Source of the DNA: Candidatus Saccharimonadota bacterium
Lineage (GTDB): Bacteria; Patescibacteriota; Saccharimonadia; CAILAD01; BJGX01
DNA: 39,234 bases
Assembly: GCA_014191035.1 (NCBI GenBank)
Contig: BJGX01000007.1
Location: 1-39,234, forward strand
Direction: 5' to 3'
Notes under the pieces: generated by a model
The model's input: the letters and a program-made list of their open reading frames with translations, nothing else
Databases searched by the model: none
Told to the model about the DNA's origin: nothing
Program-made: the position numbers and the translations under genes
Shown: positions 12,141-31,418 of the stretch, in pieces
Position numbering within the stretch: position 1 is the stretch's first letter
Layout of the letters: the number at the start of each line of letters is the position of its first letter

Positions 12141-12524
12141 TTAACTAGAAAGACTACCAATAACAAAATTAACTATAGCAAAAGCAACAATAGCCACTAC
12201 AAGACCGATTACAGCATAAAGCACTGTGTTTCTAGCATCTGCAACAGTCTTTTCGTTGCCTGCGCTTAATACCATTCGTAGTGCTCCAACAATTATCATA
12301 ATTACAGATGCAATCCCTACAATGGCTAATAATATATTTATAACTACAGTAATTATTCCACCACCGCCTGAAAGATTTTCAGGCAAAGTACCGCCGGCAC
12401 ATTCAATTCCCTGCCCGATAGTGTTGCCAGTTTCAGAGCACTGTGCAGCAGCTCTCTGAGGTAAGGAAAATGCAAAAAGCCCTGAGGCAATTATGATTCC
12501 ACTGGACTTTTTGAATATTTTCAT
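12141..12524 (-). CDS. TrbC/VirB2-family pilin-like protein 4
   Basis: A 127-residue secretion-pilus-type subunit. It has a cleavable signal peptide ending at AAA-Q (about residue 27), a short Gly-rich segment with two cysteines that could form a disulfide, and two hydrophobic helices separated by the polar loop SAGNEKTVADARNT, as in TrbC/VirB2 pilins. The reading frame runs 14 codons further upstream, into the end of the previous pilin gene, but the Met at 12524 begins a normal signal peptide and is preferred. It is the last gene of a four-gene leftward operon and is followed by a terminator. It is closely similar to the next gene upstream, so the two are likely duplicates. Confidence 0.85.
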   Translation of the reverse strand: MKIFKKSSGIIIASGLFAFSLPQRAAAQCSETGNTIGQGIECAGGTLPENLSGGGGIITVVINILLAIVGIASVIMIIVGALRMVLSAGNEKTVADARNTVLYAVIGLVVAIVAFAIVNFVIGSLSS

Positions 12525-12540
12525 ATTAATTTTCTTAAGT

Positions 12541-12909
12541 TTACTGACCAAGACCACCAATAACAAAGTTTACAATTGCGAATGCTAGCACAGCAACAAC
12601 AATTCCAATTATAGCGAAAAGAATTGTGTCCTTAGCACCGCTTGTAGCTTTTTCGTTACCCGCACTCAATACATATCGAAAGCCTCCGATTATCAGCATG
12701 ATTACGGCCACAACGCCAATAATACCCAAAAGGATATTAATTATTAAAGATATATACTCAGTTAGAGTCGTGCCTCCGACATTTGCACCTTTCTGAACAC
12801 TGTTAACTGAGTTTTCTAACTGACTTGTTTGTGCAAAAACTTTTGTTGCAAACATTGTAGAACCAAATGCTGCAGCACTAATTGATTTTTTAATAGTTTT
12901 AATAGACAT
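12541..12909 (-). CDS. TrbC/VirB2-family pilin-like protein 3
   Basis: A 122-residue pilin-type protein. The signal peptide ends near VFA-Q (about residue 26). It is followed by a short soluble stretch and two membrane helices separated by the loop SAGNEKATSGAKDT; the final helix ends FAIVNFVIGGLGQ, almost as in the neighbouring paralogue. A good Shine-Dalgarno sequence, AAAGGAG, lies about 6 bases before the ATG, the best in this operon, which fits a highly made subunit. A 60-base gap separates it from the upstream pilin gene. VirB2/TrbC pilins insert in the membrane and assemble into the conjugative or secretion pilus with the VirB6 and VirB4 proteins encoded divergently. Confidence 0.87.
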   Translation of the reverse strand: MSIKTIKKSISAAAFGSTMFATKVFAQTSQLENSVNSVQKGANVGGTTLTEYISLIINILLGIIGVVAVIMLIIGGFRYVLSAGNEKATSGAKDTILFAIIGIVVAVLAFAIVNFVIGGLGQ

Positions 12910-12969
12910 TGTTTTCTCCTTTAATTCTTAAGTCTGATTATATATAAAGCTTGAAGCTTATGCAATACA

Positions 12970-13314
12970 TTATTTGGTCAGTTGAGTATTGATGAAGTTA
13001 GTTATTGCAAAAGCTGCAGTGGATATAATCAAACCAACTACTGCATATAATATTGCATCACGTGCTTGCTTGGTTTGCTTTTCGTTTCCAGCCGAAACAA
13101 CAAACATTATTCCTGCAACAATTAACACAATTACAGATGCAGCACCAACTACAAAAAATAATATTCCAACCACATTAGTTACTAACTCAGCAACGCTGGG
13201 GCCTTGTACGGCGTCTGGAATTTGACTTTCATTGATAATTTGCTGAGCCTGAGCAGGCAAAGGCATCACGGCAAGCGATGCAAAGTATGGGATTAATTTA
13301 ATAATTTTTTTCAT
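12970..13314 (-). CDS. TrbC/VirB2-family pilin-like protein 2
   Basis: A 114-residue pilin-type protein with a signal peptide ending AQA-Q (about residue 24) and two membrane helices around the loop SAGNEKQTKQARDA. The second helix ends FAITNFINTQLTK, echoing the end of the preceding double-pilin gene. Its ATG overlaps the stop of that gene in ATGA (4 bases), so translation is probably coupled. Sequence between signal and first helix is short, as in other VirB2-like subunits. It is less similar to the two following pilins than those are to each other. Confidence 0.87.
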   Translation of the reverse strand: MKKIIKLIPYFASLAVMPLPAQAQQIINESQIPDAVQGPSVAELVTNVVGILFFVVGAASVIVLIVAGIMFVVSAGNEKQTKQARDAILYAVVGLIISTAAFAITNFINTQLTK

Positions 13315-14021
13315 TTAGTTAATTGGTCCTGAATAAATGTAAGTATACCATAGGCACTTATAGAAAGTACTAGTCCGCCAATTGCATATATAAGAGTTTT
13401 TTGAGCTCCTTCTCTTGCTTTGGCATTGCCGGCAGAAGTGATATATCTAATTCCTGCAACAATTATAAAAATAACGGCCACTATTCCAGAAATAAAGCTA
13501 GCTATAGAAATAATATTACCGAGAAGTTTTGGTATGCCTTCCGGGTTTAATTCATTACCAGTTGCTCCAAAGAGGCTACTTGTGTTTACCCCCTCAAAGG
13601 CAGTATTAATTAAACCAAGTATTGCCCTAAATGATATCAACAGAACCAAGCCGGTTACTATTTTAAAGATATTTTCCTTTGCAGATTTAACCACGTTTTC
13701 ATTACCAGCCGAAGCCGATATTTGTATTCCAGACACTATTAATACAAGTACTGCAAAAGCTCCAAAAAGGCTTATCATTATATTCATAATAAATTCCAAA
13801 AGGGGCTGTAAGCCTCCTAGGGGATTACTATTACTGGCTGTACCTGTAAGGACTGCATCACAAAGGGCTGGTGGCAACACACCACAAACATCTGCACCTG
13901 TCTTATTATCTCCTGAATTTGACTGAGCATGCATTGCACCTGCAAGCCCTACAAAACTAAAGGTAGCCACAACTGCAATAAGTGCTATTTTGATTGCAAG
14001 GCTGTTTTTGAGTTTTTTCAT
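13311..14021 (-). CDS. Double-length pilin-like protein with two TrbC/VirB2 modules
   Basis: A 236-residue protein, first gene of the leftward operon. A signal peptide (about residues 1-32, ending near MHA-Q) is followed by two consecutive pilin-type modules. The first (about 65-145) has two helices around SASAGNENVVKSAKEN; the second (about 160-236) has two helices around TSAGNAKAREGAQKT and ends TFIQDQLTK. A typical family member has one module, so this is an internal duplication or fusion. Two cysteines lie in the N-terminal soluble part. A TAGTAT -10 ends 6 bases before the ATG, so the operon's mRNA may be leaderless. The product may cap, initiate or anchor the pilus; that role is inferred only from its size. 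Confidence 0.83.
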   Translation of the reverse strand: MKKLKNSLAIKIALIAVVATFSFVGLAGAMHAQSNSGDNKTGADVCGVLPPALCDAVLTGTASNSNPLGGLQPLLEFIMNIMISLFGAFAVLVLIVSGIQISASAGNENVVKSAKENIFKIVTGLVLLISFRAILGLINTAFEGVNTSSLFGATGNELNPEGIPKLLGNIISIASFISGIVAVIFIIVAGIRYITSAGNAKAREGAQKTLIYAIGGLVLSISAYGILTFIQDQLTK

Positions 14022-14097: not shown

Positions 14098-16005
14098 ATG
14101 AATGTAGCATTAAAGAGTTGGATTAAAAAATTTGTGCTTGTTCTAACAGCTTTGCTGTTAGTTTTTAGTCTTGCAGCTCCAGTAGCTTTTGCACAAGACA
14201 ATAAAGAGCTTGATCCAAACCAATTAAATAACAAAATAGATGAGGAATCAGAAACAAAAGTAAATGATACTGTAAAGGCATGCGAAGAAGGCACAGGTGG
14301 TGTAAGTATCGTTGTTTGTCCGGTAGTTAATTTGCTTGTACGTGGCATAACTAGGCTTACTTTGGGTGGTGGAGGCCAAGAGGACGGTCAACGCAAAAGC
14401 CCGCTTATCAGCTTTTTAGCAGTTGATCCTCCCAGGGCTTCAATTAATGGCGATGCGACTCCACTGGCTAACGTAGTAAATAATGTAGTAATTATTGCCA
14501 ACTCCATATACATACTAGTGTTTTTAGTACTAATATTTGGCAGCAGCCTGCCTTTCTTTACAGCTCAAAACTACACTATTAAAAAGACCTTGCCTAAGCT
14601 GATTATTGCCGTAATACTTACTCAATTTACACTTCCAATTACAGGTATAGTTATAGACTTTTTTAATCTGCTTGGTTATGCCATACCTAATATATTACTT
14701 GCCATTGGCCAAGTTCCAGATACTGTAACAGGTGCAGGAGACACAACATCCAAAGTTGGAGCTGGTATTGGGTTCAGTATTACTTCGGGCTTGGGTATTG
14801 CTGGTACTGGCAGTATCGTTTTAGCTGGTTTTGGTTGGATTTTTATAATAGGCTTTTTACTGGCAGCTTTAATATCTGTTATTGTTGCGTTTGTTTATAT
14901 GATTATAAGGTACTTTTTAATATATGTAATGATACTTATAGCGCCACTGGCATTTGTTGCGTGGGTTATCCCAGGCACCGAAAAATTCTTTAAGCAGTGG
15001 TGGACCGACTTTATTCGGCTTAACGCCATGTTTGTAACGATTATGGCGCTATTGTCTTCTTCTGTAGTTATCTCGGCAGCCTTGACGGCGCAAAATGCAA
15101 AAGACCCTAACGGGACTGGGATTGGCATATTGCCAGCAGTTATGCCGATTGTTGCTCTTTTTTTAATACCCAAAACACTCAAGGCAACAACCAAAGGCCT
15201 AAGTGCACTTTCGGGAGCTGTGCTTGGTGCAGCTGGTGCAGCGACTGGAAAGGCTACTAGCAAAGCCAAAGAAGCTGGCAAAGCACAAATACAAGAACAA
15301 CGGGGAGCCGCAGCTGCCGCAGCTTTTGGTAAAAATACTAGCTTTGGTAGAACCCGAGCTGCTCTATTGCAAGGCAAGCTGCCAACAGCCAAGGGACAAT
15401 TCCAGGCAGGCCAGAAAGCATCTGCCTTTAACGCCGAGCAGCGCAAGATTGCCAATGAATCTCTGCAATTCCAAGGCTCTAATTTAGATTTTGGTAGTTA
15501 TCAGAGAGAATTACGCAATATCGCAAGTGGCAAGGGTTCAGCAGTTTTGAAGGCTAAAAAAGGCGATAGGAATGTTCAAATTGCAGCAGGCAATATATTG
15601 GCGCAGCAAGGTGATGTTGAGCATATAAGGGCTATGCTGGGAGGGGGAACTGTTGGCACTGGCGCAGATGCAGTAACTTATGCGCCAGGAACAATAGACC
15701 CTCAAACACTTTCTGAATTTGTGCAGCCTTCTTTTGGAGATTTAAAGTCTGCTGCACCAGACCTGACAAATGGGGGCAATCCTAACGCCTTCGAAGGGCT
15801 TTCTGCAGAAAAAATTGCGAGCTTGGACGCATCCTCTATTAAGGAAATGAGTAAATACCATGATCCAGGTGGTGGTGGTGCCGCTAAAAGCCTAGAACTG
15901 CAAAAACAGCTTAGTCTCCTTCGACAGGACCCAAATCTGCGTAATAAGCTAAGTCAAAAGCAAATTGATGCACTTAATGCTGATAGCCGCGGTGTAAGAT
16001 TTTAG
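14098..16005 (+). CDS. VirB6/TrbL-like polytopic membrane protein of the secretion system
   Basis: A 635-residue protein. It has an N-terminal signal-like helix ending VAFAQ (about residue 33), an outside segment with two cysteines (about 60-80), then about six hydrophobic helices between residues 80 and 360. These include the pattern FLVLIFGSSLPFF and the block MILIAPLAFVAWVIPGTEKFFKQWW, a motif common in VirB6/TrbL-type channel proteins of minimal type IV systems. Residues 375-635 are a basic, Ala/Gly/Gln-rich hydrophilic tail, probably cytoplasmic. VirB6 forms part of the inner-membrane channel. It begins the rightward operon, 76 bases from the divergent pilin operon, and is followed after 2 bases by the PrgI gene. 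Confidence 0.82.
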   Translation: MNVALKSWIKKFVLVLTALLLVFSLAAPVAFAQDNKELDPNQLNNKIDEESETKVNDTVKACEEGTGGVSIVVCPVVNLLVRGITRLTLGGGGQEDGQRKSPLISFLAVDPPRASINGDATPLANVVNNVVIIANSIYILVFLVLIFGSSLPFFTAQNYTIKKTLPKLIIAVILTQFTLPITGIVIDFFNLLGYAIPNILLAIGQVPDTVTGAGDTTSKVGAGIGFSITSGLGIAGTGSIVLAGFGWIFIIGFLLAALISVIVAFVYMIIRYFLIYVMILIAPLAFVAWVIPGTEKFFKQWWTDFIRLNAMFVTIMALLSSSVVISAALTAQNAKDPNGTGIGILPAVMPIVALFLIPKTLKATTKGLSALSGAVLGAAGAATGKATSKAKEAGKAQIQEQRGAAAAAAFGKNTSFGRTRAALLQGKLPTAKGQFQAGQKASAFNAEQRKIANESLQFQGSNLDFGSYQRELRNIASGKGSAVLKAKKGDRNVQIAAGNILAQQGDVEHIRAMLGGGTVGTGADAVTYAPGTIDPQTLSEFVQPSFGDLKSAAPDLTNGGNPNAFEGLSAEKIASLDASSIKEMSKYHDPGGGGAAKSLELQKQLSLLRQDPNLRNKLSQKQIDALNADSRGVRF

Positions 16006-16007: not shown

Positions 16008-16853
16008 ATGGGACAATACAAAGTACCACAAGATGTAGAGGCAGAAGACAAACTTATTGGACCGTTAAGTCTACGCCAATTTATTTATGTTGTTATTGGT
16101 GTTGTGTGGGCCGGATTGATGTTTTTTGTATTAAGACCAACCGGAAATTCTTCTAGTGCTGTAGTTAATTATATAATTATGGCTGTAGTTATTATCCCAA
16201 TTACTGGTTTCTTTTTACTGCTTGGTTTTGGAAGAAGACAAGAACAAAGTTTTGAAAAATACTTTGTTGCTTTAGTAAGATTTTATTTTGTTCCAAGGGT
16301 TAGGATATGGGACAAAGATCTTTCAACAACCGAATTAATTAAAGAGGAAGTAAAAGTTCCAGAGATAATTACCGAAAAGAATGTACCAAAAAGTAGCCTA
16401 GAGCAGTTAGCGCTTGTAATGGACACCCATGGGTTTATGAAAGATCCTACAATTCAGCTACAAGACGAGTCTAACCAAGCAGCAGTTTATGGGCAAAGAG
16501 TAATCAACCCCCAGCAAATAGCTGGCAACGTAGCAAACCAAACTAGAACCCTACAGGTAACCCAGCAAGATGATGTGCTTGATGCTTCCAGCCAAAGAAG
16601 TGAACAAGTAAATACACTTCTACAAAACGAGGAAGCAAACATACATCAGCAAGCACTCGAAAGAATTAGACAAAATATGACAATTCCGCAGACAGAAACT
16701 CAGCCAACCGTTTCTCAACCACAGACATCAAGTGCTATACTTAAAAAGGCTATGCTTCAAAGTAATAATTTAACTGTTCAACAACTGGCCAATGAGGCCA
16801 ATTCGCAAGAAATGCGAGAAGGACAGCAAATACAGATAGCGACTGGGAAATAA
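16008..16853 (+). CDS. PrgI-family (VirB3-like) membrane protein with Gln-rich tail
   Basis: A 281-residue protein. The N-terminus YKVPQDVEAEDKLIGPLSLRQ followed by two membrane helices (about residues 25-43 and 50-67) and the short cytoplasmic RRQEQSFEKYF is diagnostic of the PrgI family found in Gram-positive conjugation systems, where it takes the place of VirB3 and partners with VirB4. Residues 110-281 are unusually long, polar and Gln/Thr/Asn-rich, probably disordered; typical PrgI proteins are much shorter (about 110-130 residues). It is 2 bases after the VirB6-like gene and 5 bases before the TraC-like gene, so it is in one operon with them. Confidence 0.85.
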   Translation: MGQYKVPQDVEAEDKLIGPLSLRQFIYVVIGVVWAGLMFFVLRPTGNSSSAVVNYIIMAVVIIPITGFFLLLGFGRRQEQSFEKYFVALVRFYFVPRVRIWDKDLSTTELIKEEVKVPEIITEKNVPKSSLEQLALVMDTHGFMKDPTIQLQDESNQAAVYGQRVINPQQIAGNVANQTRTLQVTQQDDVLDASSQRSEQVNTLLQNEEANIHQQALERIRQNMTIPQTETQPTVSQPQTSSAILKKAMLQSNNLTVQQLANEANSQEMREGQQIQIATGK

Positions 16854-16858: not shown

Positions 16859-17737
16859 ATGCCTCCACAAATGAATCCAAATCAGCAAGAATATATTAAT
16901 AGCACAACTCCGCCTAAAAAAAAGAAGGGCGACATGCAAAGCACACAGGCGCATCTTAACTTTTCAGAAGTTAGAGATGGTATTGTAATTATGCGTGATG
17001 GAAGCTTAAGGATGATTGTTATGTGCTCTCCAACCAATTATGATCTTAAAAGTTCAGCCGAAAAAGATGCTATAGAGTTTGCCTATCAAGGGTTTTTAAA
17101 TGGGCTGCATTTTCCTATTCAAATATGCGTACAGTCTCGTAAGATTGACTTAGATTCCTATCTCGACGATTTAGATCATAAGCTGGCCGACCAAACTAAC
17201 CCTTTGTTAGCAGGCCTTATGGAAGATTATATTTTCAATATTCGTGATCTTTTAACCCAAGTAAATATCATGGATAAAAGGTTCTATGTAGTTGTTCCTT
17301 ATTTCGTGGCGGAGGCTGCTAAAGGCAATGTCTTTAAAGAGCTAGCCGGTACTGTGGCCCCACAGTCAGACGTAAGTCAAACGAGCAAAGAGTTTCAAGA
17401 TAGAAAAGCAGAGCTTATCCAAAGAACAAATAGTGTAGCACAAGGACTTGCTTCAATAGGGGTTAGGGCAGCAGTGCTTAGAACTCAAGAAGTAATTGAG
17501 TTGTTTTATGGATCTTACAATATAGATGAATCGGAGCATCAGTCTCTAGGTAATGCGCAAGATTTAGTTGCACCCGTGACCGTAAGGTCTGGTTCACCAG
17601 CAAGACCATATCAGCCCCAGACTAAAGAACCTGAACCTCAAGATCTTTTTTCAGCAGCCCAAAAAAATACTACAAATAACACTCAAGCTCAGCCTCAACA
17701 GGTTCAGCCTCAATATAAACCTGGAGGAACAAAGTAA
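16859..17737 (+). CDS. TraC-like secretion-system protein preceding VirB4
   Basis: A 292-residue cytoplasmic protein. After a Pro/Gln-rich start, residues 28-125 contain DGIVIMRDGSLRMIVMCS, then a helix, then FPIQICVQSRKIDLDSY. That is the strand-helix pattern of the N-terminal domain of VirB4/TraC/CagE ATPases (query strand, then fL-x-pIqi). A longer helical segment follows, then a polar Gln/Pro-rich tail. There is no Walker motif. The gene stops in TAATG, overlapping the VirB4 start by one base, so the two are translationally coupled. Because VirB4 here has its own N-terminal region, this is probably a duplicated or split-off VirB4 N-domain partner rather than a broken gene. Confidence 0.72.
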   Translation: MPPQMNPNQQEYINSTTPPKKKKGDMQSTQAHLNFSEVRDGIVIMRDGSLRMIVMCSPTNYDLKSSAEKDAIEFAYQGFLNGLHFPIQICVQSRKIDLDSYLDDLDHKLADQTNPLLAGLMEDYIFNIRDLLTQVNIMDKRFYVVVPYFVAEAAKGNVFKELAGTVAPQSDVSQTSKEFQDRKAELIQRTNSVAQGLASIGVRAAVLRTQEVIELFYGSYNIDESEHQSLGNAQDLVAPVTVRSGSPARPYQPQTKEPEPQDLFSAAQKNTTNNTQAQPQQVQPQYKPGGTK

Positions 17738-19605
17738 TGGCTTTTGGCAAAAAAAATCAACCACAAGTAGATCCAGCACAGGTTCAGGCTGAACAATACT
17801 ATATGCAGGGAGTCACGACGCTTCGTGATTTGATTGCCCCTAGTTCTTATGAAATTCAGAGCAATTATATAAAAATCGGTCGCCGTTATGCTCGTACTTA
17901 TTTTGTATATGGCTACCCAAGAAGCATCTTCACTGGTTGGTTATCACCAATTATAAATCTAGACGAAGTTGTTGATATTAGCCTAAATATTGAGCCAGTT
18001 GAAAGCCAAATAGTACTGAATAATCTTAAAAAGAAGGTGACACAACTTGAAGCTAGCTATTCAATAAACCAAGAAAAGGGTAAAATCCGAGACCCTGGCC
18101 TGGAAGCTGCCATTGGTGATGCCGAAGAACTGCGCGATAAATTACAGGTTGGAGCGGACAGGTTCTTCAGATTCGGTTTGTACATTACAGTTTATGGTGC
18201 AGACGAAAAAGAACTCGATATTGTTGGCCGTAAGGTCGAGAGCATCTTAGGCTCTAGCCTTATTTATACTAAGCCGGCTACTGTCCAGATGGAGCAGGGC
18301 TTTAATTCGACCCTTCCAATGGGTACCGACCAATTACAAATCCGCCGAAACATGGACACCGGATCTATCTCCACAAGCTTTCCATTTACTACTGCCAATT
18401 TAAGCCGTAACGAGGGAATAATGTATGGAATTAACCGCAGTAACAATGGGCTAATTTTATTCGATAGATTCAGTCTTGAAAACGCCAATATGGTAGTTTT
18501 TGCCAAATCTGGTGCTGGTAAAAGTTTTGCGATTAAGCTCGAGTGCTTGCGCTCGCTCATGATGGGTACCGAAATAATTATTATTGACCCCGAAAACGAA
18601 TATCGCACTCTATGTGACGCAGTAGGTGGAAGCTTCTTGCACTTAAGCCTAGCTTCGGACACTCGAATCAACCCGTTTGATCTGCCAAAGACTATTGACC
18701 CAGAAGAAGCAGATAATGCCTTACGAGCAAATATAATTATGCTACACGGCCTAATTAGGCTAATGACAGGCCAAATGAACGCCGCCGAAGTTGCGGATTT
18801 AGATTTAGCATTAATAAATACTTATGCAAACAAAGGAATAACCAATGACCCCCTAACCCACAATGCCGAGCCGCCAGTAATGAAGGACTTATATGAAACT
18901 CTCAACACTATGGGAGGTAACGGTCCATCTTTGGCTGCCAGATTAAGACGCTTCACTGAAGGTACATTTGCAGGTATATTTTCTGAACAAAGCAATGTTA
19001 GCTTAGACAGTAACTTTGTTGTATTTAACATTCGTGATCTTGAAGACGAACTACGACCAATAGGAATGTATATAACCCTGAACTATATCTGGAATAGGGT
19101 TAAGACCGATAAAAGAAAACGCATATTGGTGGTAGACGAAGCCTGGCAGCTAATGCAGTATCAAGACTCGGCAATGTTTATGTTTAGTATTGCCAAGCGT
19201 GCTCGTAAGTACTATTTGGGACTAACTACTATTTCTCAAGATGTAGAAGACTTTTTAAGCACAAGGCTTGGCCGTGCTATTGTAAACAACTCTTCATTGC
19301 AACTATTATTAAAGCAAAACCCAGCTGCGGTTGATATCATTTCTCAAACCTTCAAGCTTACTCAAGAGGAAAGCAAGCGCTTAACGCAGTTCCCAGTAGG
19401 TGAAGGTTTATTCTTTGCAGGCTTAAGTCATGTTGTAATGAGAATTATGGCTTCACCTACAGAGGAACAATTGATAACCACCAATCCGCAGGCCTTACTT
19501 GAGAGACAGATGGAACAAGAAAAAATGTCGGCAAGCGAGACCATTAACTCCGGCCAAAATCAACAGCCTCAAACCAATTTTGAAGCTGCAGACACTACCG
19601 TCTAG
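17737..19605 (+). CDS. virB4: VirB4-family secretion ATPase
   Basis: A 622-residue ATPase that powers pilus assembly and substrate transfer at the inner face of the membrane. The N-terminal domain (about residues 20-220) begins TLRDLIAPSSYEI. The HerA/FtsK-type ATPase domain follows: Walker A KSGAGKSF (about 256-263), the strand IIIIDPENEY, an INPFDLP block, Walker B ILVVDEAWQLM (about 462-472), and the sensor segment ISQDVEDFL. All key residues are intact. Length is close to compact VirB4s of Gram-positive systems. Coupled to the upstream TraC-like gene by TAATG. It is the anchor for calling this a type IV secretion locus; no VirD4 coupling ATPase is seen in the window. Confidence 0.93.
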   Translation: MAFGKKNQPQVDPAQVQAEQYYMQGVTTLRDLIAPSSYEIQSNYIKIGRRYARTYFVYGYPRSIFTGWLSPIINLDEVVDISLNIEPVESQIVLNNLKKKVTQLEASYSINQEKGKIRDPGLEAAIGDAEELRDKLQVGADRFFRFGLYITVYGADEKELDIVGRKVESILGSSLIYTKPATVQMEQGFNSTLPMGTDQLQIRRNMDTGSISTSFPFTTANLSRNEGIMYGINRSNNGLILFDRFSLENANMVVFAKSGAGKSFAIKLECLRSLMMGTEIIIIDPENEYRTLCDAVGGSFLHLSLASDTRINPFDLPKTIDPEEADNALRANIIMLHGLIRLMTGQMNAAEVADLDLALINTYANKGITNDPLTHNAEPPVMKDLYETLNTMGGNGPSLAARLRRFTEGTFAGIFSEQSNVSLDSNFVVFNIRDLEDELRPIGMYITLNYIWNRVKTDKRKRILVVDEAWQLMQYQDSAMFMFSIAKRARKYYLGLTTISQDVEDFLSTRLGRAIVNNSSLQLLLKQNPAAVDIISQTFKLTQEESKRLTQFPVGEGLFFAGLSHVVMRIMASPTEEQLITTNPQALLERQMEQEKMSASETINSGQNQQPQTNFEAADTTV

Positions 19606-19651: not shown

Positions 19652-22600
19652 ATGGATGGTGAGAAAAATAATCCCAAGCCTGGTGGCTTAAAAGACAAAA
19701 TGCCTGACCAAAATGAAAAATTGGGCTCGGGTGATTTTGCTAACGAATCAAAACTTTCTGCTGATGGTGATGTATCTTCCGGTGGAGGTCCACAAAGAGC
19801 TGATAAGTTTGTCGATAAAGCCTCTGATACATCTAAAAAAGTTAAGGATGCAAAGGATGACATAAAATCTATAGCCAGGGCTACGGCAAACCAAGGCGTT
19901 GGCAAAGAAGATGTCGAGGATATTAAAAAAGCTGCCGAAGAAAAGGGCGCCAAAGGCGTAGCAGGTGAAGTAGGCAGAAAAGCAGTTGGTAAGGGTGTTC
20001 AGGCCGGATTAGATGCCACTGGCGTTGGCGCGCCGTTAGGTGCAACTGCCGGTAAGGCTGTAGAAAAAGGCTTAAAGAAAGAAAACCTAAAAAAAATCGC
20101 TATTGCTGCTTCTATACCTATAATAGTTACAATTGCTGTTGTTGGGTTTTTCATTTTTTTATTCGCCTCATTCTTAAGAAACCCTTTAAAATTTGGGTGG
20201 AAAGTATTAACAGACTCTACAATTAGAGGTTATGCAATCGACGTTGTAGGAGGGATTGCTTGTAAGTTTACTATTAAGCCTGATGCTTGCAATAAAGCAA
20301 AAGATTTTGTCAATGACATAGTTATAGATACTATGTACGGTGATTTACATAAAAAATACGGCTATGTAGATTTCATACCTGGAGCAGCATATGCTCAGTC
20401 AAGCACCGCTAGCCCTCCTGCAGGCTCTATTGATGAAAAGCTACTTAAGATTGATTATGGTAAAGCAAAATACCAATATGGCGATGAGCCAACATGCCCC
20501 GCAACTGTCATTGAAAAAACCCTAATTGGTCCTAATGGCGAAAAGAGAGTTGTAGTAGATAAAGTTCTGGATAAAGATGGTAAAGTTTATGAAAAAACCG
20601 ACCCAATAGCCGTCTACTGCATTTTAAACAAAATGCCGCTATTCAATATAATGATTCGAACACAGCAAGCAAGAGATGTTAATAAATTCAGCTCAACTAA
20701 ACTCAATTATGCAGATTCTAAAGATTCGTCAAATTTCAAGGACAAGAGCTATCAAGAGATTAAAGAATATGTATATGATAAAAGTTATGAGAGAGTCACT
20801 AGTAAACCTAGCGACACCCCAAAGGTACAGATAGTTAATCAGTACATAGATGAAGTGCGTAAAAAACTGGAAGAGGGCGAAGATCCAAATACTGTCGAAT
20901 ATGATTTTGGGGGTAGAAACCCAGATAGTCCCGAAACCAGACTAGAAACTCTTTGTACTTTCACTAAGGGCTACCTAGACGAAGAGAATCAAAAAAAGTC
21001 ACTATTTTCTAGACTCAATACTGGCCAGAGAAACTCGGCCAAATTTGGAACTATGGACTCCACTTCAGTACTAAACCTCACTTCGGGAGATGAAAATAGG
21101 GCTACTTATGACCAAGTTAGTAACCTTACTAGGAGCAAGGTGTACAACCAAAATGTTTATGGTACCCAAATTGGTGAATCAATTGACCCTGAATCCTTAT
21201 CAAATACAGCCTATGGTGGCTCTTTTGTTAGGACTCAAAATATTTTGTCGCAAATAAAAGACACTTGTGGAACAGCGCAAGCTCAAGACGTAGTGGCTGA
21301 CATTGCAAACTTTTTTACTGGTAGCAGAGATGACGCAGTTGTGACTATAGATGCATCTTATGCTAGCCTTAAGGACTTGATTGCAAATCAGTCAAGACTA
21401 ACTGAAGGCAAGTTTACAAGCCCAAACGACTTTGGTGTCAGAGAACTTATGATAGGTGTTATCAGGACTGGTGGTGGATCTTCAGTCTCAGGTGTTGAAG
21501 TTGAAGGATACCAAAATTATGGCAACCAGGCACAGGGCTTTGATTCTGTATACAATCAATACATGATTAGAAATGGTGGCAGATTCCAGACAGATGCAGA
21601 AGCAACCGAGCTCAGAGAGTTAAGCGAAAACACTAGAAGAACGATTGAAAAAAAGTCAGGTTTAGCATACAGACTTTTTAATAAAGACAATATAAGATCT
21701 CTGGCCAACATAATGAGTGCTGAGATGCCCAAAAATACCACAGAAGTAAAAAGTCGTTCAAAGGATTATATAGCCGCAATATCTAATCCTATAAAAATGA
21801 TTGCTGACTTCCAGGGCTCTATTGGTTACTTTGCTTTTGGAGAAAGAAACGTTGCAACAGCGCAGGTGGTTGCGGGAAGCACATTCACGAGGGTTGATTC
21901 CGTTGGTATAGCAGGAGAAGATTTTAACAACATAAACTTTAAAACTAACGCCAATGATATTAAAAACTTGCAAGAAAATGGCTCCGAAGAAGAAAAGAAG
22001 ATATTAGGTTATTTCGATAAATGTACTAAAAGCAATATCCCAACCAAATCTATATTTGCAAGAAAATATGAAACTATTCTTAGTGGCGGCAAAATAGAAG
22101 TTAATGAAAATGCGCCCATTAAAGAGGCGGATAAAACTCCTGTGTACCTATTTACTACCGACGGAACAAGTTTAGGTTTTGCTGACAAGAAAGAGTTTAT
22201 GGCTTGCGAAATATACTTAATGCCCAAAGATAGCGCTACTCAAAGAGATCTTATTGCAATACAAAGTGACATTTTTGGACAAAATATAACAGACTTAGCT
22301 GTAAAGTATAGGGCTAATTTATACATAAATAGCTTACTGGACAACATGGTAGAACTTAGCAGTACAGATAAAACTGAAAAAATCTATGCCAATTCAGCCT
22401 CTGGAGGAGCGTCCAGTACAGATAGCGGTATAGACGGAGTTGAGTGCCCACCAAATCTTGGAGGACCCGACCCGGGTAGAAATAATTATTTTCAGCTTCC
22501 AAAAAATCCTGACGCATATTCAAGTTATTCTCCGCCAAATGAACAGTATGGCTCAAAAGAATTAGTGTGTGTTATATATACAGTAGGAAAAGGCTTAAAG

Positions 22601-23032
22601 GCTAAATACCCAGGAGCAAGCTTACATATTGGAGACATGAATGCGGCAGGCCACAAATCTCACTTTTGGGGAATTGCAATGGATCTTGTAGCTCTTAATA
22701 ATGGCAGTATTTTTGCCGCAGATAATACTAAGTCTGGCTATAATAGACAGGCGACAGTTGATTTAGGCAAGCTTTTTGTTGATACAGGCTTAATTCAAAA
22801 CATTTGGTGGTGTGGAGGTGATGGCAGTATTCAAGAAATCGAAGCTTATGCAGTAAGCAAGGGAACACCAATAAATATAAAGTGTATTCCAGGCCACAGA
22901 GACCATTTCCATGTAGATATCCTTTGCGAATATGGCGGCCCAATAGATGTGCCTTACACCGGCGGTGGTGGAGCACAAAATGCACCCTGTAATAAAGCTG
23001 CCAGAAGATCATTAAGTACAGGGCCGCTATGA
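19652..23032 (+). CDS. Large membrane-anchored protein with C-terminal LAS-type murein peptidase domain
   Basis: A 1126-residue protein. Residues 1-145 are polar, charged and Gly/Lys-rich, probably cytoplasmic. One strong membrane segment (about 147-172, IAASIPIIVTIAVVGFFIF) follows. The large outside region (about 190-920) has no family that I recognise and contains scattered cysteines. The last part (about 930-1105) shows GDMN, then SHFWGIAMDL (about 1002-1010) and HRDHFHVD (about 1081-1088). The S-H-x-x-G-x-A-x-D and H-x-x-H-x-H-like spacing is the zinc signature of the LAS superfamily (M15 and MepA/M74 peptidases), which cut peptide crosslinks of peptidoglycan. The N-terminal cytoplasmic domain and position after VirB4 suggest a structural secretion-system part carrying a wall-cutting tip. 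The stop overlaps the next gene in ATGA. Confidence 0.78.
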   Translation: MDGEKNNPKPGGLKDKMPDQNEKLGSGDFANESKLSADGDVSSGGGPQRADKFVDKASDTSKKVKDAKDDIKSIARATANQGVGKEDVEDIKKAAEEKGAKGVAGEVGRKAVGKGVQAGLDATGVGAPLGATAGKAVEKGLKKENLKKIAIAASIPIIVTIAVVGFFIFLFASFLRNPLKFGWKVLTDSTIRGYAIDVVGGIACKFTIKPDACNKAKDFVNDIVIDTMYGDLHKKYGYVDFIPGAAYAQSSTASPPAGSIDEKLLKIDYGKAKYQYGDEPTCPATVIEKTLIGPNGEKRVVVDKVLDKDGKVYEKTDPIAVYCILNKMPLFNIMIRTQQARDVNKFSSTKLNYADSKDSSNFKDKSYQEIKEYVYDKSYERVTSKPSDTPKVQIVNQYIDEVRKKLEEGEDPNTVEYDFGGRNPDSPETRLETLCTFTKGYLDEENQKKSLFSRLNTGQRNSAKFGTMDSTSVLNLTSGDENRATYDQVSNLTRSKVYNQNVYGTQIGESIDPESLSNTAYGGSFVRTQNILSQIKDTCGTAQAQDVVADIANFFTGSRDDAVVTIDASYASLKDLIANQSRLTEGKFTSPNDFGVRELMIGVIRTGGGSSVSGVEVEGYQNYGNQAQGFDSVYNQYMIRNGGRFQTDAEATELRELSENTRRTIEKKSGLAYRLFNKDNIRSLANIMSAEMPKNTTEVKSRSKDYIAAISNPIKMIADFQGSIGYFAFGERNVATAQVVAGSTFTRVDSVGIAGEDFNNINFKTNANDIKNLQENGSEEEKKILGYFDKCTKSNIPTKSIFARKYETILSGGKIEVNENAPIKEADKTPVYLFTTDGTSLGFADKKEFMACEIYLMPKDSATQRDLIAIQSDIFGQNITDLAVKYRANLYINSLLDNMVELSSTDKTEKIYANSASGGASSTDSGIDGVECPPNLGGPDPGRNNYFQLPKNPDAYSSYSPPNEQYGSKELVCVIYTVGKGLKAKYPGASLHIGDMNAAGHKSHFWGIAMDLVALNNGSIFAADNTKSGYNRQATVDLGKLFVDTGLIQNIWWCGGDGSIQEIEAYAVSKGTPINIKCIPGHRDHFHVDILCEYGGPIDVPYTGGGGAQNAPCNKAARRSLSTGPL

Positions 23033-23637
23033 AAAAATATACTGTCTATTTAATAATTTCAATTATTATAATCTTCATGATTATTTTAATCAGTTCTATA
23101 TACTTAAACAGAAAAGTAGACGTAACCTTTACTATAAGACCAGATGGTAAATACAAACTGTTGGTTGATAAAAAAGAATACAATGTAACAATTAGCAAGA
23201 CCTTGCCCCTAAACACTGGCAAGCAAAAGGTTACTGTTAAGGCAGATGGATATGAAGATGAAAATATTGAAATAAATGTTAAAAATTCAGCCAAAAATGA
23301 GTTTGTTATAGATATGTCAGATAATAAAATTGCACCAAATGGACTTACAAATATTCAAGGAATTAGCAGCAACATTCTTAAAAACTATAAGCTAATATCA
23401 ATAACTCTTTATGATAATGACAGGTGGTTGGCTGCAACATTGGTATCTAAAAATAACCCTGATGACAATCTAGCGTTTGCAGCAAAACGGGAAAATAAAA
23501 AATGGAAAGTTGCAATTCCACCAGCAATAGAATTCGATCAAGAAAAATTAATAAATACACCTAAAGATATATCAGAATATTTAAATACTTTTAGCTTAAA
23601 CTTTATTGGTGAACCAGAGGAGGATGGTGGTGTTTAA
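23029..23637 (+). CDS. Membrane-anchored PEGA-like domain protein
   Basis: A 202-residue protein with one N-terminal membrane helix (about residues 5-26) and an outside beta-rich domain. Residues 33-95 fit the PEGA pattern: a strand with bound-value turn (FTIRPDGKYKLLVDKKEYN), then LNTGKQKVTVKADGYEDENIEINV, where the G-x-H-x-x-x-V-x-x-x-GY core is typical. The C-terminal 100 residues, with ISITLYDNDRWLAATLVSK, form a second small domain that I do not recognise. PEGA domains are extracytoplasmic adhesion or wall-associated modules. The start overlaps the upstream gene by 4 bases and the stop overlaps the next gene by 8, so it is tightly coupled in the operon. Confidence 0.75.
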   Translation: MKKYTVYLIISIIIIFMIILISSIYLNRKVDVTFTIRPDGKYKLLVDKKEYNVTISKTLPLNTGKQKVTVKADGYEDENIEINVKNSAKNEFVIDMSDNKIAPNGLTNIQGISSNILKNYKLISITLYDNDRWLAATLVSKNNPDDNLAFAAKRENKKWKVAIPPAIEFDQEKLINTPKDISEYLNTFSLNFIGEPEEDGGV

Positions 23638-26053
23638 AATTATTTCAAATAATAAAATGTCTTGGCTTTTAAATTTTATTTTAATATCTTTTATATTTAT
23701 TTCACAGATAAACCCTGTCTTAGCACTTAGCAATGAAGACGGAAGTGATCCTTCAGGGTTTAGTCAAAGATACGTTATAGAAAGAGCTCCATGGTACGAC
23801 CCGACTGATTGCGCAGGTGGTGGTGGATCCACCGGAGCAAGTGGAGCGGCTGGTGGGCAAGAACTAGAGGGTCGTAAACTACCCGCATCTGAGGGCGGTG
23901 TTGCTACAGAAGCTACAATAGATTCAGCGGGCAAATTCACTGTTAACAATGTGGGGGAGCCAGTAGCATTTACAAAGTTTGCAGCCCTTGGCCAAGAATA
24001 CCGTGACTACTATATAACCATGCGATGGCCTTATGTTGACTGGGCCTGGGATGGTTCTGGCTCGAACCTTAATCAATCAGAACTTGATTGGTACAGCAAC
24101 CGACAGGAGCCCAGAAGAGTAACAGTAACTAACCCGGAAAATGGCAAAAGCATAGTAACTGTAGTGCTAGAATCAGGTCCTGGACCAAGCACAGGTATTG
24201 CTGAATTAAACAAAAAACAACAAGAAAAACTCTGGGGAGCACCAAGAAATGATACTCCGGCAGGATACCAAGGCAGGGTCGGAGGCTTACCTCCAAAAGC
24301 TATGGAGGCTTTGGGTGCCAAAACTTGGACAGATTCAGGCCCAGATAATGGTGGAGGCGGTTCTAAATTAAAATTTGCATGGACTCAAGACCAAAATGCT
24401 AAACCAGGACCTACTACTGCAAGCGCTGGCAGTGGTGCTAAGACTGGAAAAATATATATTATTGGCGATTCAATAACTGAAGATTCTGGAATCAATAGAG
24501 GTCTAAAAGACAAGCTTAAAGCGGATGGCTACACAGATGTAAAAATTAACTCCAAGGCATCCAGAGCCTTAAGAGATGGTGGTGGTAATCTAGACGGAAT
24601 AGGAGTGCTTAAAAGAGATCAGTCACAATGGTCAGATGCCAATACAATTGTTGTTGAGCTTGGTACGAATGGCGGCATTGATGCTGCAAATATTCGAAAA
24701 ACTGTCGATACAATTAAGGCAGGGGCTCCAAATGCCAGCATCTACTGGGTAAATGTAGGTGCTAATAATTCTACTAGAACCACCGGTGGACCAATCGACA
24801 CTGACAAACTAGATAGTATATTGAAAGAAAACTCATCATTAGGTTATAAAGTAATAGACTGGAACAGCGTAGTAAAACAAAAGCCAACATTAATTGTTAG
24901 TGATGGACTTGGCGTTCACCCTTATACGGAAGAGGGTAGAAAAGCTTATGTAGATACAATATCAAAAAGTCTTGGTGGTAATGCAAACAGTGAAGTCGGA
25001 AATACCACATGTACTTGCCCAACAGGCGTAACGGACAACGGTTTTTCAGGTAATAATAATGTTGAAATAGCTTTTAACTTTTTTAATGGAAGAGAGGGCA
25101 TAGATGCAGTTCATGCCGCCGCTATTGTGGGTAATTTTATGCTAGAGTCTGGTGGCAACGTTACTGTAGATCCAAATAGTATAAATGATAAAAGTGGGGC
25201 ATTTGGAATAGCACAGTGGCTAGGAGGTAGAAAAACTGGGCTAATAAACTTTGCAAGAGAAAGGGGAAAGCAGCCCAACGACCTTCAAGTTCAGCTTGAA
25301 TACACTATATTCGAGGTCACTCAAACTGGTGAAAAGCCACGTTTTCAAAGATTCCTAAAAACAACAACCGTGAAAGATGCTGCAATATCCTGGGAAGTCG
25401 AATTTGAAAGATCGGGCGGTGCTGCAATTCGGCAGCGCGTTAATAATTCCGAAAAGGTATCCCAACTTTATGGCAAAAATGCTCCATCGAGTGTAGTTTC
25501 AAGCTCAAACAGTACTCCAACAGATTGCAATAACCAAGTCGGAGGATTAGGTCAAGGGCCGGATGGTTTTGTATTTCCTTTAAGAACAACTAAATCGCAA
25601 ATTAAAAAAGGCAATTCGCAAGGTTTGGTTTGGTGCTATACAAGCCAAACTAACTGTCATGGAGTTTATCCAGCTGCCGATATTGGAGTTCCTGAAGGCA
25701 CTGAAGTTGTGGCATCAATCGGGGGTAAGGTTGTTAATGCAAACCCGAGTTGCACCAAAAACTGTTCTGTGACAATAAAAGGTGATGATCAGTATCTTTA
25801 CTACTACACACATATGGGTGCCGGCACAACAACCGTAAAAATTGGTGATGTTGTTAAGGCAGGTCAGTTGCTTGGCAAGGTTGGAAGCTCGGCTGACGCC
25901 CAAAACACATCACCGCATCTTCATTTTGATATTTACAACAAAAGCTACGATCGGCACCCAGCTTGCTCTAGAGAAAATGGCTGCCCTACGCAGGGAGATA
26001 TGATTAACCCACAACCAGCATTAATAGCAGCCTTTAATAACTTACCGGAGTAA
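23630..26053 (+). CDS. Exported three-domain wall enzyme: SGNH hydrolase, phage-tail-type lysozyme, M23 endopeptidase
   Basis: About 807 residues from GTG 23630, chosen because AGAGGAGG (23616-23623) lies 6 bases upstream; ATG 23624 and GTG 23627 are too close to it. A signal peptide runs to about residue 32 (PVLALS). After a Gly-rich region: an SGNH/GDSL hydrolase domain (about 272-440) with GDSI, ELGTNGG and the catalytic D-x-x-x-H pattern in DGLGVHP; a phage-tail-lysozyme-like domain (about 477-600) with Glu in NFMLESGG and SGAFGIAQW; and a LytM/M23 domain (about 647-795) with H-x-x-x-x-x-D in CHGVYPAAD, then THMG and SPHLHFD. Together they could remove ester groups, cut glycan strands and cut peptide bridges of peptidoglycan. 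Its place in a VirB4 operon points to wall passage. Confidence 0.85.
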   Translation: MFKIISNNKMSWLLNFILISFIFISQINPVLALSNEDGSDPSGFSQRYVIERAPWYDPTDCAGGGGSTGASGAAGGQELEGRKLPASEGGVATEATIDSAGKFTVNNVGEPVAFTKFAALGQEYRDYYITMRWPYVDWAWDGSGSNLNQSELDWYSNRQEPRRVTVTNPENGKSIVTVVLESGPGPSTGIAELNKKQQEKLWGAPRNDTPAGYQGRVGGLPPKAMEALGAKTWTDSGPDNGGGGSKLKFAWTQDQNAKPGPTTASAGSGAKTGKIYIIGDSITEDSGINRGLKDKLKADGYTDVKINSKASRALRDGGGNLDGIGVLKRDQSQWSDANTIVVELGTNGGIDAANIRKTVDTIKAGAPNASIYWVNVGANNSTRTTGGPIDTDKLDSILKENSSLGYKVIDWNSVVKQKPTLIVSDGLGVHPYTEEGRKAYVDTISKSLGGNANSEVGNTTCTCPTGVTDNGFSGNNNVEIAFNFFNGREGIDAVHAAAIVGNFMLESGGNVTVDPNSINDKSGAFGIAQWLGGRKTGLINFARERGKQPNDLQVQLEYTIFEVTQTGEKPRFQRFLKTTTVKDAAISWEVEFERSGGAAIRQRVNNSEKVSQLYGKNAPSSVVSSSNSTPTDCNNQVGGLGQGPDGFVFPLRTTKSQIKKGNSQGLVWCYTSQTNCHGVYPAADIGVPEGTEVVASIGGKVVNANPSCTKNCSVTIKGDDQYLYYYTHMGAGTTTVKIGDVVKAGQLLGKVGSSADAQNTSPHLHFDIYNKSYDRHPACSRENGCPTQGDMINPQPALIAAFNNLPE

Positions 26054-26057: not shown

Positions 26058-27338
26058 ATGAATGATGACTACATAAAAAGAAATAAAAGAATCATAGCAA
26101 TTGGTGCCATATCTCTTATTTCATTGTTAATTTTGTTTTATATAATAACTAATTTTGTTTTTAGAGGTAGAGTAAAGATTGTTGCCCCTAAAAACTCAAG
26201 CATTTATCAGCTTGATATAAAAACAACTGGCTATAGTAAAAAGTTGCTTGGAAAATCAAGCGTATCGTTCACATCAAACGCTGGCGAGTTTACATATCAA
26301 GTAGAGGATGGCCAAAAAAATGCTATCCAGACAGTAGACATAAAAAGCGGAAAAAGCTATGAATTCATCATTAATCCATCCGAAATAAAGAGCCCTAATA
26401 CTGCATCTCGAGTAACTGCAACTAGTATAAATGTATTATCTAATAGCATAAGCTATCTAAATCCTACTTATAACTATCTTGAAAGGGTTAACATAGGCAA
26501 TAATATTCCTTCCAATTACCCAGTGTCTCCCTTTCCTGGAAATGTAAATGAAATTTTGTGGACAAACAGCAATCAAGCAATACTCAAATATGACAATAAA
26601 GTTGGTTTTTTAGATTCTGGAAAAATCAATGAAATAACTTTCAATGAAGTTAGACTAGAGAATGGCTCCGATGCTTATGAGTTTTTAGATCAAGAGCTGA
26701 ATAATTTTGTAGCTAACTCTAAAAATCAAATTTTAGCTTCTGTTGGTCCCGGTATTGTGCTGAAACAAACCCCAAAATCGCCCGGCGATATATTAGTAAA
26801 TGAAGTTCAGGGTCAATTTATTAATCTTGCACTTTCTAATAATGACTACTACGCATATTCTGCAACTGAAGATATAAGTGATGAGGGTGAGTCTGCTGAA
26901 CAAAAAGAAAATGATACAGATCGAAGCATATTCCTCAGAAAAGTCGGTGATTCTAAGTTTATAAATAAAATAGAATCTGAATCCAGTGTTACAGCAATTG
27001 TTTTTAGCCCTGATTCAAAAAAGATGGCTTATGTTAATGCTGAAGGACTACATGTTTATGATTTAATATCAAACAAAAACACTTTGCTATATACAAAGCA
27101 AATAGCAAAGCCCAATCTAACAACCTGGGTAGACGAAAATAAGCTTATATACACTGATCAAGAGGGCGTATGGGAAATGAATATTGAAAACTTGAGGGCT
27201 GATAAGATAATTGATAATGCCAATATTACATACTTACAATCATTCTTTGTAGATAGGGATGAAAAAATACTCTATTACAGTATTATTCTGCCTAATCCAA
27301 GCGGAGATAAAGGTTTAATTGAGTATATTGGAATATAA
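26058..27338 (+). CDS. Membrane-anchored protein with PEGA-like and beta-propeller-like domains
   Basis: A 426-residue protein with an N-terminal membrane helix (about residues 11-33). It is followed by a beta-rich PEGA-like segment (about 36-112, with VKIVAPKNSSIYQLDIKT and YEFIIN). The rest (about 130-426) has repeated strands typical of TolB/WD40-like propellers, for example VTAIVFSPDSKKMAYVNAEG and LTTWVDENKLIYTDQEGVW. Such outside propellers usually bind proteins or glycans. Spacing of 4 bases from the wall-enzyme gene indicates the same operon, of which it is the last member. It shares the anchor-plus-PEGA layout with the 202-residue protein two genes upstream. It ends 3 bases before the end of the convergent replication genes, with only an A/T hairpin between. 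Confidence 0.75.
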   Translation: MNDDYIKRNKRIIAIGAISLISLLILFYIITNFVFRGRVKIVAPKNSSIYQLDIKTTGYSKKLLGKSSVSFTSNAGEFTYQVEDGQKNAIQTVDIKSGKSYEFIINPSEIKSPNTASRVTATSINVLSNSISYLNPTYNYLERVNIGNNIPSNYPVSPFPGNVNEILWTNSNQAILKYDNKVGFLDSGKINEITFNEVRLENGSDAYEFLDQELNNFVANSKNQILASVGPGIVLKQTPKSPGDILVNEVQGQFINLALSNNDYYAYSATEDISDEGESAEQKENDTDRSIFLRKVGDSKFINKIESESSVTAIVFSPDSKKMAYVNAEGLHVYDLISNKNTLLYTKQIAKPNLTTWVDENKLIYTDQEGVWEMNIENLRADKIIDNANITYLQSFFVDRDEKILYYSIILPNPSGDKGLIEYIGI

Positions 27339-27341: not shown

Positions 27342-27575
27342 TTAGATTATCTTAATATTCATGTTAAGGTATTTGTTTAGATGCTCTATTTTCATCCTCA
27401 GCTCGAGCGCCTCATAATTATTATTTGCTTTAATATACAAGGTTTCATTTTTAATCTTTAAGGAGACTGGACTTATCCCAGTAATTTCTATTATCTTTTT
27501 TCTAATACTATCAAGTTCTGCTGATTTAGATTTATATTCTGAATATTTATCTAGATTATTTTTTATGTGATCCAT
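27342..27575 (-). CDS. Short DUF721/DciA-like protein
   Basis: A 77-residue basic cytoplasmic protein. After an N-terminal helix, residues 35-72 (SPVSLKIKNETLYIKANNN, then a helix containing EALELRMK and LNKYLN) match the core of the DUF721/DciA family: P-x-S/V, a strand, K-x-x-x-L-x-I, a polar turn, then A-x-x-L-R and L-N. DciA helps load or stimulate the replicative helicase DnaB. The position directly after recF, overlapping it by one base (TAATG), is where DUF721 genes occur in many bacteria. It is shorter than usual DciA proteins (over 100 residues) and keeps only the KH-like core. The assignment is from motif and position. Confidence 0.6.
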   Translation of the reverse strand: MDHIKNNLDKYSEYKSKSAELDSIRKKIIEITGISPVSLKIKNETLYIKANNNYEALELRMKIEHLNKYLNMNIKII

Positions 27576-29721: not shown

Positions 29722-29751
29722 TTAAAACTCCAATTTAGATTTGTCTTATTT

Positions 29752-29757
29752 ATTATA
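29752..29757 (-). promoter_or_regulatory. -10 element of dnaN
   Basis: TATAAT on the minus strand, 30 bases before the dnaN ATG, giving a leader of about 23 bases containing the TTGGAG ribosome site. It lies in the A/T-rich tract next to the DnaA-trio repeats, so initiation of replication and dnaN transcription may affect each other. Confidence 0.55.
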
Positions 29758-29771
29758 TTTAATTTATTTAA

Positions 29772-29789: not shown

Positions 29790-29816
29790 TTGTTGTGGAA
29801 AGCGTGCAAAAGCTAC

Positions 29817-30001: not shown

Positions 30002-30003
30002 TA

Positions 30004-31401: not shown

Positions 31402-31418
31402 TTACCCTCTCTTTTTTT

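Follow-up and report, generated by a model that had tools for sequence, protein, structure and literature searches.

A predicted three-domain, exported wall hydrolase with exchangeable catalytic modules in a type IV secretion operon of a Saccharibacterium

The window analyzed here, a stretch of 39,234 nucleotides from a Candidatus Saccharimonadota genome (contig BJGX01000007.1, assembly GCA_014191035.1), contains a VirB6-PrgI-TrsD-VirB4 type IV secretion system (T4SS) operon adjoining dnaA. An array of four T4SS_pilin genes lies on the reverse strand at 12141..14021 (12141-12566, 12541-12909, 12970-13314, and 13311-14021). On the forward strand, the genes for a VirB6-like membrane protein (14098..16005), the VirB3-like protein PrgI (16008..16853; Pfam, E 6e-17), a TrsD-like protein (16859..17737), and a VirB4 ATPase of the CD1110 family (17737..19605; NCBIfam equivalog above cut-off, E 1.5e-109) make up the set of an MPF-FATA-type T4SS. 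VirB6 and TrsD were matched weakly by library profiles (NCBIfam E 0.0015 and E 0.016, respectively), VirB6 being at a conserved position and TrsD conserved in 56 of 61 loci. No relaxase was recognized among the window genes searched.

Downstream of VirB4, also on the forward strand, are genes encoding a 1126-aa membrane-anchored protein (19652..23032; transmembrane region at about 145-179), a 202-aa protein with an N-terminal membrane anchor that is conserved in the operon (23029..23637), the multi-domain protein described below, and a 426-aa protein with an N-terminal anchor and weak similarity to a TolB-like propeller (26058..27338). The 1126-aa protein has a predicted M74-like metallopeptidase at its C-terminus, overlooked in the initial annotation of this DNA; its match falls below the Pfam cut-off (E 0.0019) and that of its counterpart in locus L033 above it. 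This C-terminal part is swapped for VanY or M23 in relatives, and a sequence search found no solved relatives of it.

One multi-domain, exported wall hydrolase of 807 aa is encoded at 23630..26053 (forward strand). Its frame stays open upstream to a TTG at 23606, and the GTG at 23630, which overlaps the preceding gene (end 23637), and the ATG at 23657 are equally plausible starts. A hydropathy scan located a single hydrophobic segment, an N-terminal signal peptide (aa 10-32, 23657..23725) with a putative cleavage site placed by eye between NPVLA and LSN, and predicted no membrane anchor beyond it. The signal peptide is followed by a head (aa 33-61, LSNEDGSDPSGFSQRYVIERAPWYDPTDC; 23726..23812) that is common to relatives carrying other catalytic domains and was also recovered in a held-out test. 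Next is an uncharacterized domain (aa ~85-262, 23882..24415), defined by alignments and present mainly in other Patescibacteria, which had no Pfam match in the window copy or in the family members scanned. Its AlphaFold2 confidence is low (52.3), and a double-psi beta-barrel (RlpA/expansin-like) fold is suspected from the motif pattern and from non-significant Foldseek matches to several double-psi beta-barrel proteins. Both the head and this fourth conserved domain, N-terminal of the SGNH domain, had escaped the initial annotation.

The initial annotation had described a single exported protein of a VirB4 operon that carries SGNH, lysozyme, and M23 domains, and this is borne out by Pfam, family alignments, AlphaFold, and the signal peptide. 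The SGNH domain spans aa 269-456 (24434..24997; S281, N347, D425, H430), the Phage_lysozyme2 domain aa 469-616 (25034..25477; E506), and the Peptidase_M23 domain aa 669-778 (25634..25963; possibly H677, with D684, H728, H763, and H765). Pfam matched Phage_lysozyme2 (PF18013) at aa 477-610 (E 1.5e-24, 87.2 bits against a cut-off of 28.2) and Peptidase_M23 at aa 683-772 (E 1.2e-18, 67.5 bits against 28.7), and a genome-wide profile search found these to be the only Phage_lysozyme2 and the only M23 domain of the genome. The single SGNH sequence fell short of the curated cut-off for Lipase_GDSL_2 (aa 278-431, E 1.1e-3, 19.9 against 32.9 bits), although several relatives pass it (e.g., L031, L042, and L043). 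Its assignment is established by an alignment and profile of 21 members, whose best solved relative is the C-terminal domain of OatA (E 1.7e-13), and by the AlphaFold fold (pLDDT 88.6). The open frame, the Pfam and OatA matches, and the fold together rule out chance or a frame artefact, and it is virtually certain that the three domains are real.

The catalytic motifs reported earlier are conserved in the family alignments, with two departures in the window copy. In the SGNH domain, an OatA/PatB-like fold with blocks I, III, and V bearing the Ser, Asn, and Asp/His residues, S281, N347, and H430 are each kept in 20 of 21 members and D425 in 18; one copy (L041) has lost all four, which indicates that degenerate copies exist. 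Block V of the window reads DGLGVH, with Asp five residues before His rather than the DxxH arrangement; this spacing is also found in six other relatives and a phage homologue, and a seventh relative has DGSKLH. The lysozyme catalytic glutamate, E506, is invariant (38/38). Among the 26 M23 sequences, D684 and H728 are kept in all, and H763 and H765 in 25. The first zinc histidine is displaced by one residue in the window (CHGVYPAAD, H677) compared with most relatives, in which it lies two residues ahead of an aromatic residue; judging from the sequence, this may weaken the M23 domain.

The SGNH domain had been suggested to remove acetyl groups that block lysozyme, and this predicted activity is strengthened because the closest relatives of known structure belong to the peptidoglycan O-acetyl enzymes; Foldseek matches of the model include PatB, OatA, and Ape1, together with sialate and xylan esterases. 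With Ala or Gly in place of its invariant Block II Val/Ile, OatA becomes a weaker transferase and a stronger esterase (PMC5697884, PMC6174289). The equivalent residue in the window is Ala310, whereas the OatA-type Val/Ile is retained in 7 of the 21 SGNH relatives. The prediction is further strengthened because the window's genome has no known O-acetylation enzymes of its own: a profile search of the genome, which is 93.6% complete, found neither Acyl_transf_3 nor MBOAT acetyl suppliers. In raw counts over 49 genomes, an own acyltransferase occurs in 2 of 21 SGNH carriers and in 13 of 28 others, but this apparent avoidance vanishes in an independent-pairs test on the VirB4 tree, which corrects for relatedness; it was therefore dropped as general evidence, and only the window's genome is used here. 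Finally, the wall of S. aureus is O-acetylated by OatA, and the S. aureus jumbo phage MarsHill has a tape-measure protein with M23 and OatA-like SGNH domains next to a tail lysin with Phage_lysozyme2 and NlpC, a parallel that also strengthens the prediction. On balance, we lean slightly towards peptidoglycan O-acetyl esters as the substrate.

Domain order was compared across about 100 related T4SS loci; the exact trio is uncommon, and domains are as a rule swapped rather than conserved. In these relatives, the signal peptide leads into the short conserved head, behind which the modules are exchangeable: SGNH, GH3, or others; a glycan cutter; and M23, CHAP, NlpC, Amidase_2, C39, or VanY. On the VirB4 tree, SGNH presence flips at least 16 times; the four T4SSs closest to that of the window have four different payloads, and payloads differ even among T4SSs with 82-86% identical VirB4. 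At this one locus, the head and the secretion machinery persist and the catalytic part is exchanged, and SGNH adjoins the muramidase in the 807-aa protein and in many relatives. This swapping suggests a tool fitted to the wall to be opened. Lysozyme and peptidase genes after virB4 are already known, whereas the SGNH module and the payload swapping appear to be new; a literature search for the SGNH, Phage_lysozyme2, and M23 trio found nothing relevant.

Its cultured relatives among the Saccharibacteria are epibionts of other bacteria. The 807-aa protein may be a T4SS-associated, Sec-exported, multi-enzyme peptidoglycan opener, a reading that as a whole we give about an even chance. The SGNH domain would free muramic acid of O-acetyl or related esters, opening the glycan to cleavage by the lysozyme domain, and the peptide bridges would be cut by the M23 domain. 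The head may hold the enzyme at the T4SS, although its role as a T4SS or surface docking signal is tentative. The wall opened is probably, in the main, that of the bacterium carrying the Saccharibacterium, and the anchored 1126-aa neighbor with its predicted endopeptidase may deal with the cell's own wall. The idea of a host-wall breaching device, first raised from the sequence, remains inferential because the cell builds its own peptidoglycan and VirB1-kind hydrolases normally open the producer's wall.

The main alternative is an accessory hydrolase of the VirB1/PrgK type that opens the producer's own wall locally for assembly of the T4SS channel or pilus and has no role on foreign walls. Mur ligases in the genome make such a self-wall role possible, hydrolases of monoderm T4SSs open the producer's wall (PMC12857230, PMC11323569), and the lactococcal conjugative plasmid pMRC01 has the same order of TrsD, VirB4, one gene, and a phage-type lysozyme. 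However, the 807-aa protein has no predicted anchor, a wall for which the genome has no known O-acetylation enzymes would not need an esterase, and the operon already has a second, membrane-anchored predicted endopeptidase. Moreover, the payload changes fast, yet the chemistry of a cell's own wall would be expected to change slowly. On these grounds, this alternative is fairly unlikely.

The SGNH domain may instead act on another ester (capsule, teichoic, mycolyl, or host glycans) or, working in the opposite direction, transfer acetyl groups as OatA does and so seal or protect a wall. SGNH enzymes are broad, and the sialate and xylan esterases among the structural matches and the Val/Ile retained in a third of the relatives agree with this. 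On the other hand, the window's copy has Ala at the Block II position, its genome lacks an acetyl-donor membrane protein, and SGNH lies beside the muramidase here and in many relatives; this alternative is unlikely. Some domains may also bind or regulate without catalysis. In PrgK of pCF10, two of the three wall-hydrolase domains lack activity and act as regulators, a caution that motif conservation is not activity (PMC11323569). The degenerate L041 copy and the displaced zinc ligand point the same way, but nearly every other copy of the three domains retains its active-site residues, and this alternative is quite improbable.

Returning to the peptidoglycan opener, we tentatively propose, at somewhat less than even chance, a polymorphic wall-breaching weapon, in which a constant T4SS-tied head would carry a payload put together anew from a common stock of domains that act on walls, so as to suit whichever host wall is currently faced, including an OatA-related esterase recruited to undo host lysozyme resistance. 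If so, the system would parallel polymorphic toxins, with wall chemistry as its target. The protein bears on the function of the essential T4SS of Saccharibacteria and on the way in which these epibionts open their hosts. A payload that is readable from sequence and changes between close relatives would allow testable predictions of which wall chemistry each species can open, of whether SGNH payloads go together with O-acetylated hosts, and of whether proteins are guided to the T4SS by the head. The locus also supplies a pool of multi-domain enzymes, and its combination of SGNH, lysozyme, and peptidase recurs in S. aureus phages.

Several known systems share parts of this arrangement. Domain variety also occurs among VirB1-like proteins of conjugative systems, and like PrgK and TrsG, the 807-aa protein is a wall hydrolase encoded in a T4SS operon, with several such domains on the exported side of the membrane. 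However, PrgK is membrane-anchored and combines LytM, SLT, and CHAP without an esterase, and Pfam and hydropathy place the 807-aa protein, predicted to be soluble, outside this anchored class with SLT and CHAP; a membrane anchor is present in the known VirB1 proteins of Gram-positive bacteria (PMC12857230). Plasmid pMRC01 has a lysozyme of the same Phage_lysozyme2 family, encoded two genes after its VirB4 and combined with NlpC/P60. The tail lysin gp13 of phi29 (PDB 3csq) has a lysozyme of the same family (E 4.4e-16) and presumably an M23-type C-terminal domain, but it is a phage particle protein without SGNH or a signal peptide. MarsHill has the same kinds of module split over two phage-tail proteins, in contrast to a single Sec-exported cell protein. 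The SGNH domain shares its fold, the GDS motif, Block II (G/S)R, and the GTN motif with PatB and the C-terminal domain of OatA; the latter is joined to an Acyl_transf_3 domain and attaches acetyl groups, whereas the 807-aa protein and its genome lack Acyl_transf_3, and the transferase-favoring position is occupied by Ala. In Bdellovibrio, the lysozyme DslA acts on prey wall deacetylated by the predator (PMC7511926), a similar predatory logic of chemical editing coupled to a matching lysozyme, although these enzymes are separate, unrelated to those of the window, based on N-deacetylation, and independent of a T4SS. The T4SS of the Saccharibacterium S. epibionticum ML1 shares VirB4, PrgI, VirB6, and TrsD homologues, a pilin array, and a site near dnaA (PMC10633639, PMC12102498). 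According to the available portion of its published description, which mentions no SGNH domain, peptidase and lysozyme homologues immediately downstream of virB4 are essential for epibiotic growth (PMC12102498). The window differs in that three activities are combined in one polypeptide and that the payload varies among close relatives.

The three-domain protein described in the initial annotation is encoded by a real reading frame at 23630-26053 (+), which runs for 807 aa without a stop (a TTG start would add 24 bases upstream), and no other M23 or Phage_lysozyme2 protein was detected in the genome (684,728 bp, 93.6% complete). In Pfam searches, Phage_lysozyme2 (aa 477-610, E 1.5e-24) and Peptidase_M23 (aa 683-772, E 1.2e-18) are far over their cut-offs, whereas the SGNH domain, matched by Lipase_GDSL_2 (aa 278-431, E 1.1e-3), is under its own cut-off on the single window sequence. 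Because a single sequence was insufficient, an alignment of 21 homologous SGNH domains was built from related T4SS loci. In this alignment every GDS motif keeps its Gly and Asp, Ser281, Asn347, and His430 are each conserved in 20/21 domains, and Asp425 in 18/21. An AlphaFold2 model of the domain (pLDDT 88.6, pTM 0.86) has SGNH proteins at the head of its Foldseek matches, including PatB, OatA (5ufy), and Ape1. The lysozyme domain has a solved relative in gp13, the tail lysin of phi29 (3csq, E 4.4e-16), and its Glu506 is conserved in 38/38 sequences. The M23 domain retains Asp684, His728, His763, and His765, but its first zinc His (CHGVYPAAD) is shifted by one residue compared with most relatives, so full activity of this domain is not certain. 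The original observation stands.

When the SGNH profile was searched against all solved proteins, 6wn9 (E 1.7e-13) and 6vjp (E 1.9e-13) came first; both are labelled only "acetyltransferase" in the match table, and we take them to be the catalytic domain of OatA, a peptidoglycan O-acetyltransferase. PatB (E 3.5e-6) and, weakly, Ape1 appeared further down. Block II of OatA contains an invariant Val/Ile that favors transfer over hydrolysis; variants with Ala or Gly at this position transfer less and have more esterase activity (PMC5697884; PMC6174289). The corresponding residue is Ala310 in the window protein, while Val/Ile is kept in 7/21 relatives. Moreover, neither Acyl_transf_3 nor MBOAT proteins, the two known kinds of acetyl supplier for SGNH domains of the OatA/PatB kind, were found in the genome (93.6% complete). 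The domain is therefore more probably an esterase than a transferase, and the earlier suggestion that such an esterase may make the wall accessible to the lysozyme has gained support, as the nearest solved kin are O-acetyl enzymes. One of the 21 aligned SGNH copies, at L041:9194-12193 (-) in a related locus, lacks all four catalytic residues; the same protein also has GH3 and a lysozyme domain that is intact, and that genome encodes its own Acyl_transf_3 protein. The domain preceding SGNH (23882-24415, +; alignment A3) belongs to a family without a Pfam entry, present in 29/380 sampled genomes of the phylum and often found as stand-alone proteins of ~300 aa with the motif GDAGPAxWTGK. It is possibly a double-psi beta-barrel.

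The source organism is an uncultured member of the Saccharibacteria class. Its operon encodes, in order, VirB6-like, PrgI, TrsD-like, VirB4 (CD1110 family, over the curated cut-off), a 1126-aa membrane protein, a 202-aa anchored protein, the window protein, and a 426-aa anchored protein. The 1126-aa protein (19652-23032, +) has a single TM segment, close to residue 150, and ends in an M74-like metallopeptidase domain, which is below threshold in the window and above it in the related locus L033. Upstream of the operon, the opposite strand carries four T4SS pilin genes, and an SBP_bac_1 extracellular solute-binding protein (10718-12067, -) is located at the downstream end of this array. Directly downstream of the operon, on the opposite strand, are recF-like, dnaN, and dnaA genes, and DnaA-box-like sites cluster around dnaA (29942-30001 and 31444-31497, within 27575-31497); the replication origin probably adjoins the T4SS operon. 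A VanW-like protein with a peptidoglycan-binding domain is encoded downstream of the operon region (34862-36598, -).

VirB4 is present in 277/295 genomes of the class. In a first survey of 61 loci, partly picked because they matched, SGNH was found in 21, and where the stretch examined included VirB4, the SGNH protein always followed it at a distance of one to three genes. Only 2/39 further VirB4 loci, picked regardless of SGNH, have the domain, and SGNH is therefore a minority module. Proteins in this gene place, or slot, mix and match their modules according to Pfam: SGNH, GH3, Exo_endo_phos, or an uncharacterized domain comes first, Phage_lysozyme2, SLT, or glucosaminidase occupies the middle, and M23, CHAP, NlpC/P60, Amidase_2, C39-like, or VanY comes last, with a few assignments (some NlpC, glucosaminidase, and SLT) under the cut-off. 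For example, the slot protein at L054:8098-10395 (-) has Exo_endo_phos, then lysozyme and M23. The exact SGNH-lysozyme-M23 order of the window recurs among the surveyed loci only in L031. Mapped on a tree of VirB4 from 95 loci, the presence of SGNH requires at least 16 changes, compared to a mean of 17.5 in label shuffles (16 or fewer in 16% of shuffles), and thus hardly tracks T4SS phylogeny. The peptide cutter requires at least 13 changes among 30 labelled loci. Together with the three T4SSs closest to it, the T4SS of the window forms a 99%-supported set, the VirB4 of these three being 82-86% identical to that of the window, and each of the four carries a different payload: SGNH-lysozyme-M23, glucosaminidase-CHAP, SGNH-lysozyme-CHAP, and glucosaminidase-NlpC. 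Payload exchange also extends to the 1126-aa protein, since VanY or M23 replaces the M74-like domain in its relatives.

On the other hand, the slot proteins share a constant head, in which the signal peptide is followed by a motif of approximately [FYWH][DN]P-x(0-9)-C (APWYDPTDC in the window); ~30 head residues are alignable among the closest relatives. The strict motif occurs in 22/60 slot proteins, against 0.45 expected from shuffles, and in 0/219 other secreted-looking ORFs. Because the motif was written after the first sequences were seen, a further 40 loci served to test it; there it occurs in 4/15 slot proteins recognized by domain profiles (0.09 expected) and in 5/172 other secreted-looking ORFs. 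Four of these five (L136, L157, L142, and L164) also occupy the slot, as the second gene past VirB4, and carry wall-active domains of other kinds; the fifth (L166), lysozyme-type in appearance, lies farther away. The head thus goes with the locus rather than the payload; that it may dock the protein to the T4SS or to the cell surface is a guess.

The proposed breaching of a host wall is a plausible, unproven idea; its main rival is that the enzyme opens the wall of the producing cell itself while the T4SS is being assembled. Saccharibacterial T4SSs are of the MPF-FATA type, mostly without a relaxase, with pilin arrays and often near dnaA, and in S. epibionticum the peptidase and lysozyme homologues after virB4 are essential (PMC12102498; PMC10633639). 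No earlier description of the OatA-like SGNH module, the constant head, or pervasive payload exchange was found in the open-access main texts consulted. TM7i, a related strain in culture, shares this arrangement of T4SS and dnaA but, unlike the window, has only an M23 protein between virB4 and recF.

Beyond this class, the SGNH domain has matches in the tape-measure proteins of jumbo phages that infect S. aureus (E 3e-9). The tape-measure protein of phage MarsHill (L173:4309-16172) holds M23 and an OatA-like SGNH domain, which is absent from the Pfam output and has OatA likewise as its best solved relative, and the next gene encodes Phage_lysozyme2 and NlpC/P60. The S. aureus wall is O-acetylated by OatA (PMC5697884). 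In the conjugative plasmid pMRC01, TrsD, a VirB4-like ATPase, one gene, and a Phage_lysozyme2 and NlpC protein mirror the Saccharibacterial order, which supports the view that the slot derives from a wall hydrolase of the conjugation type.
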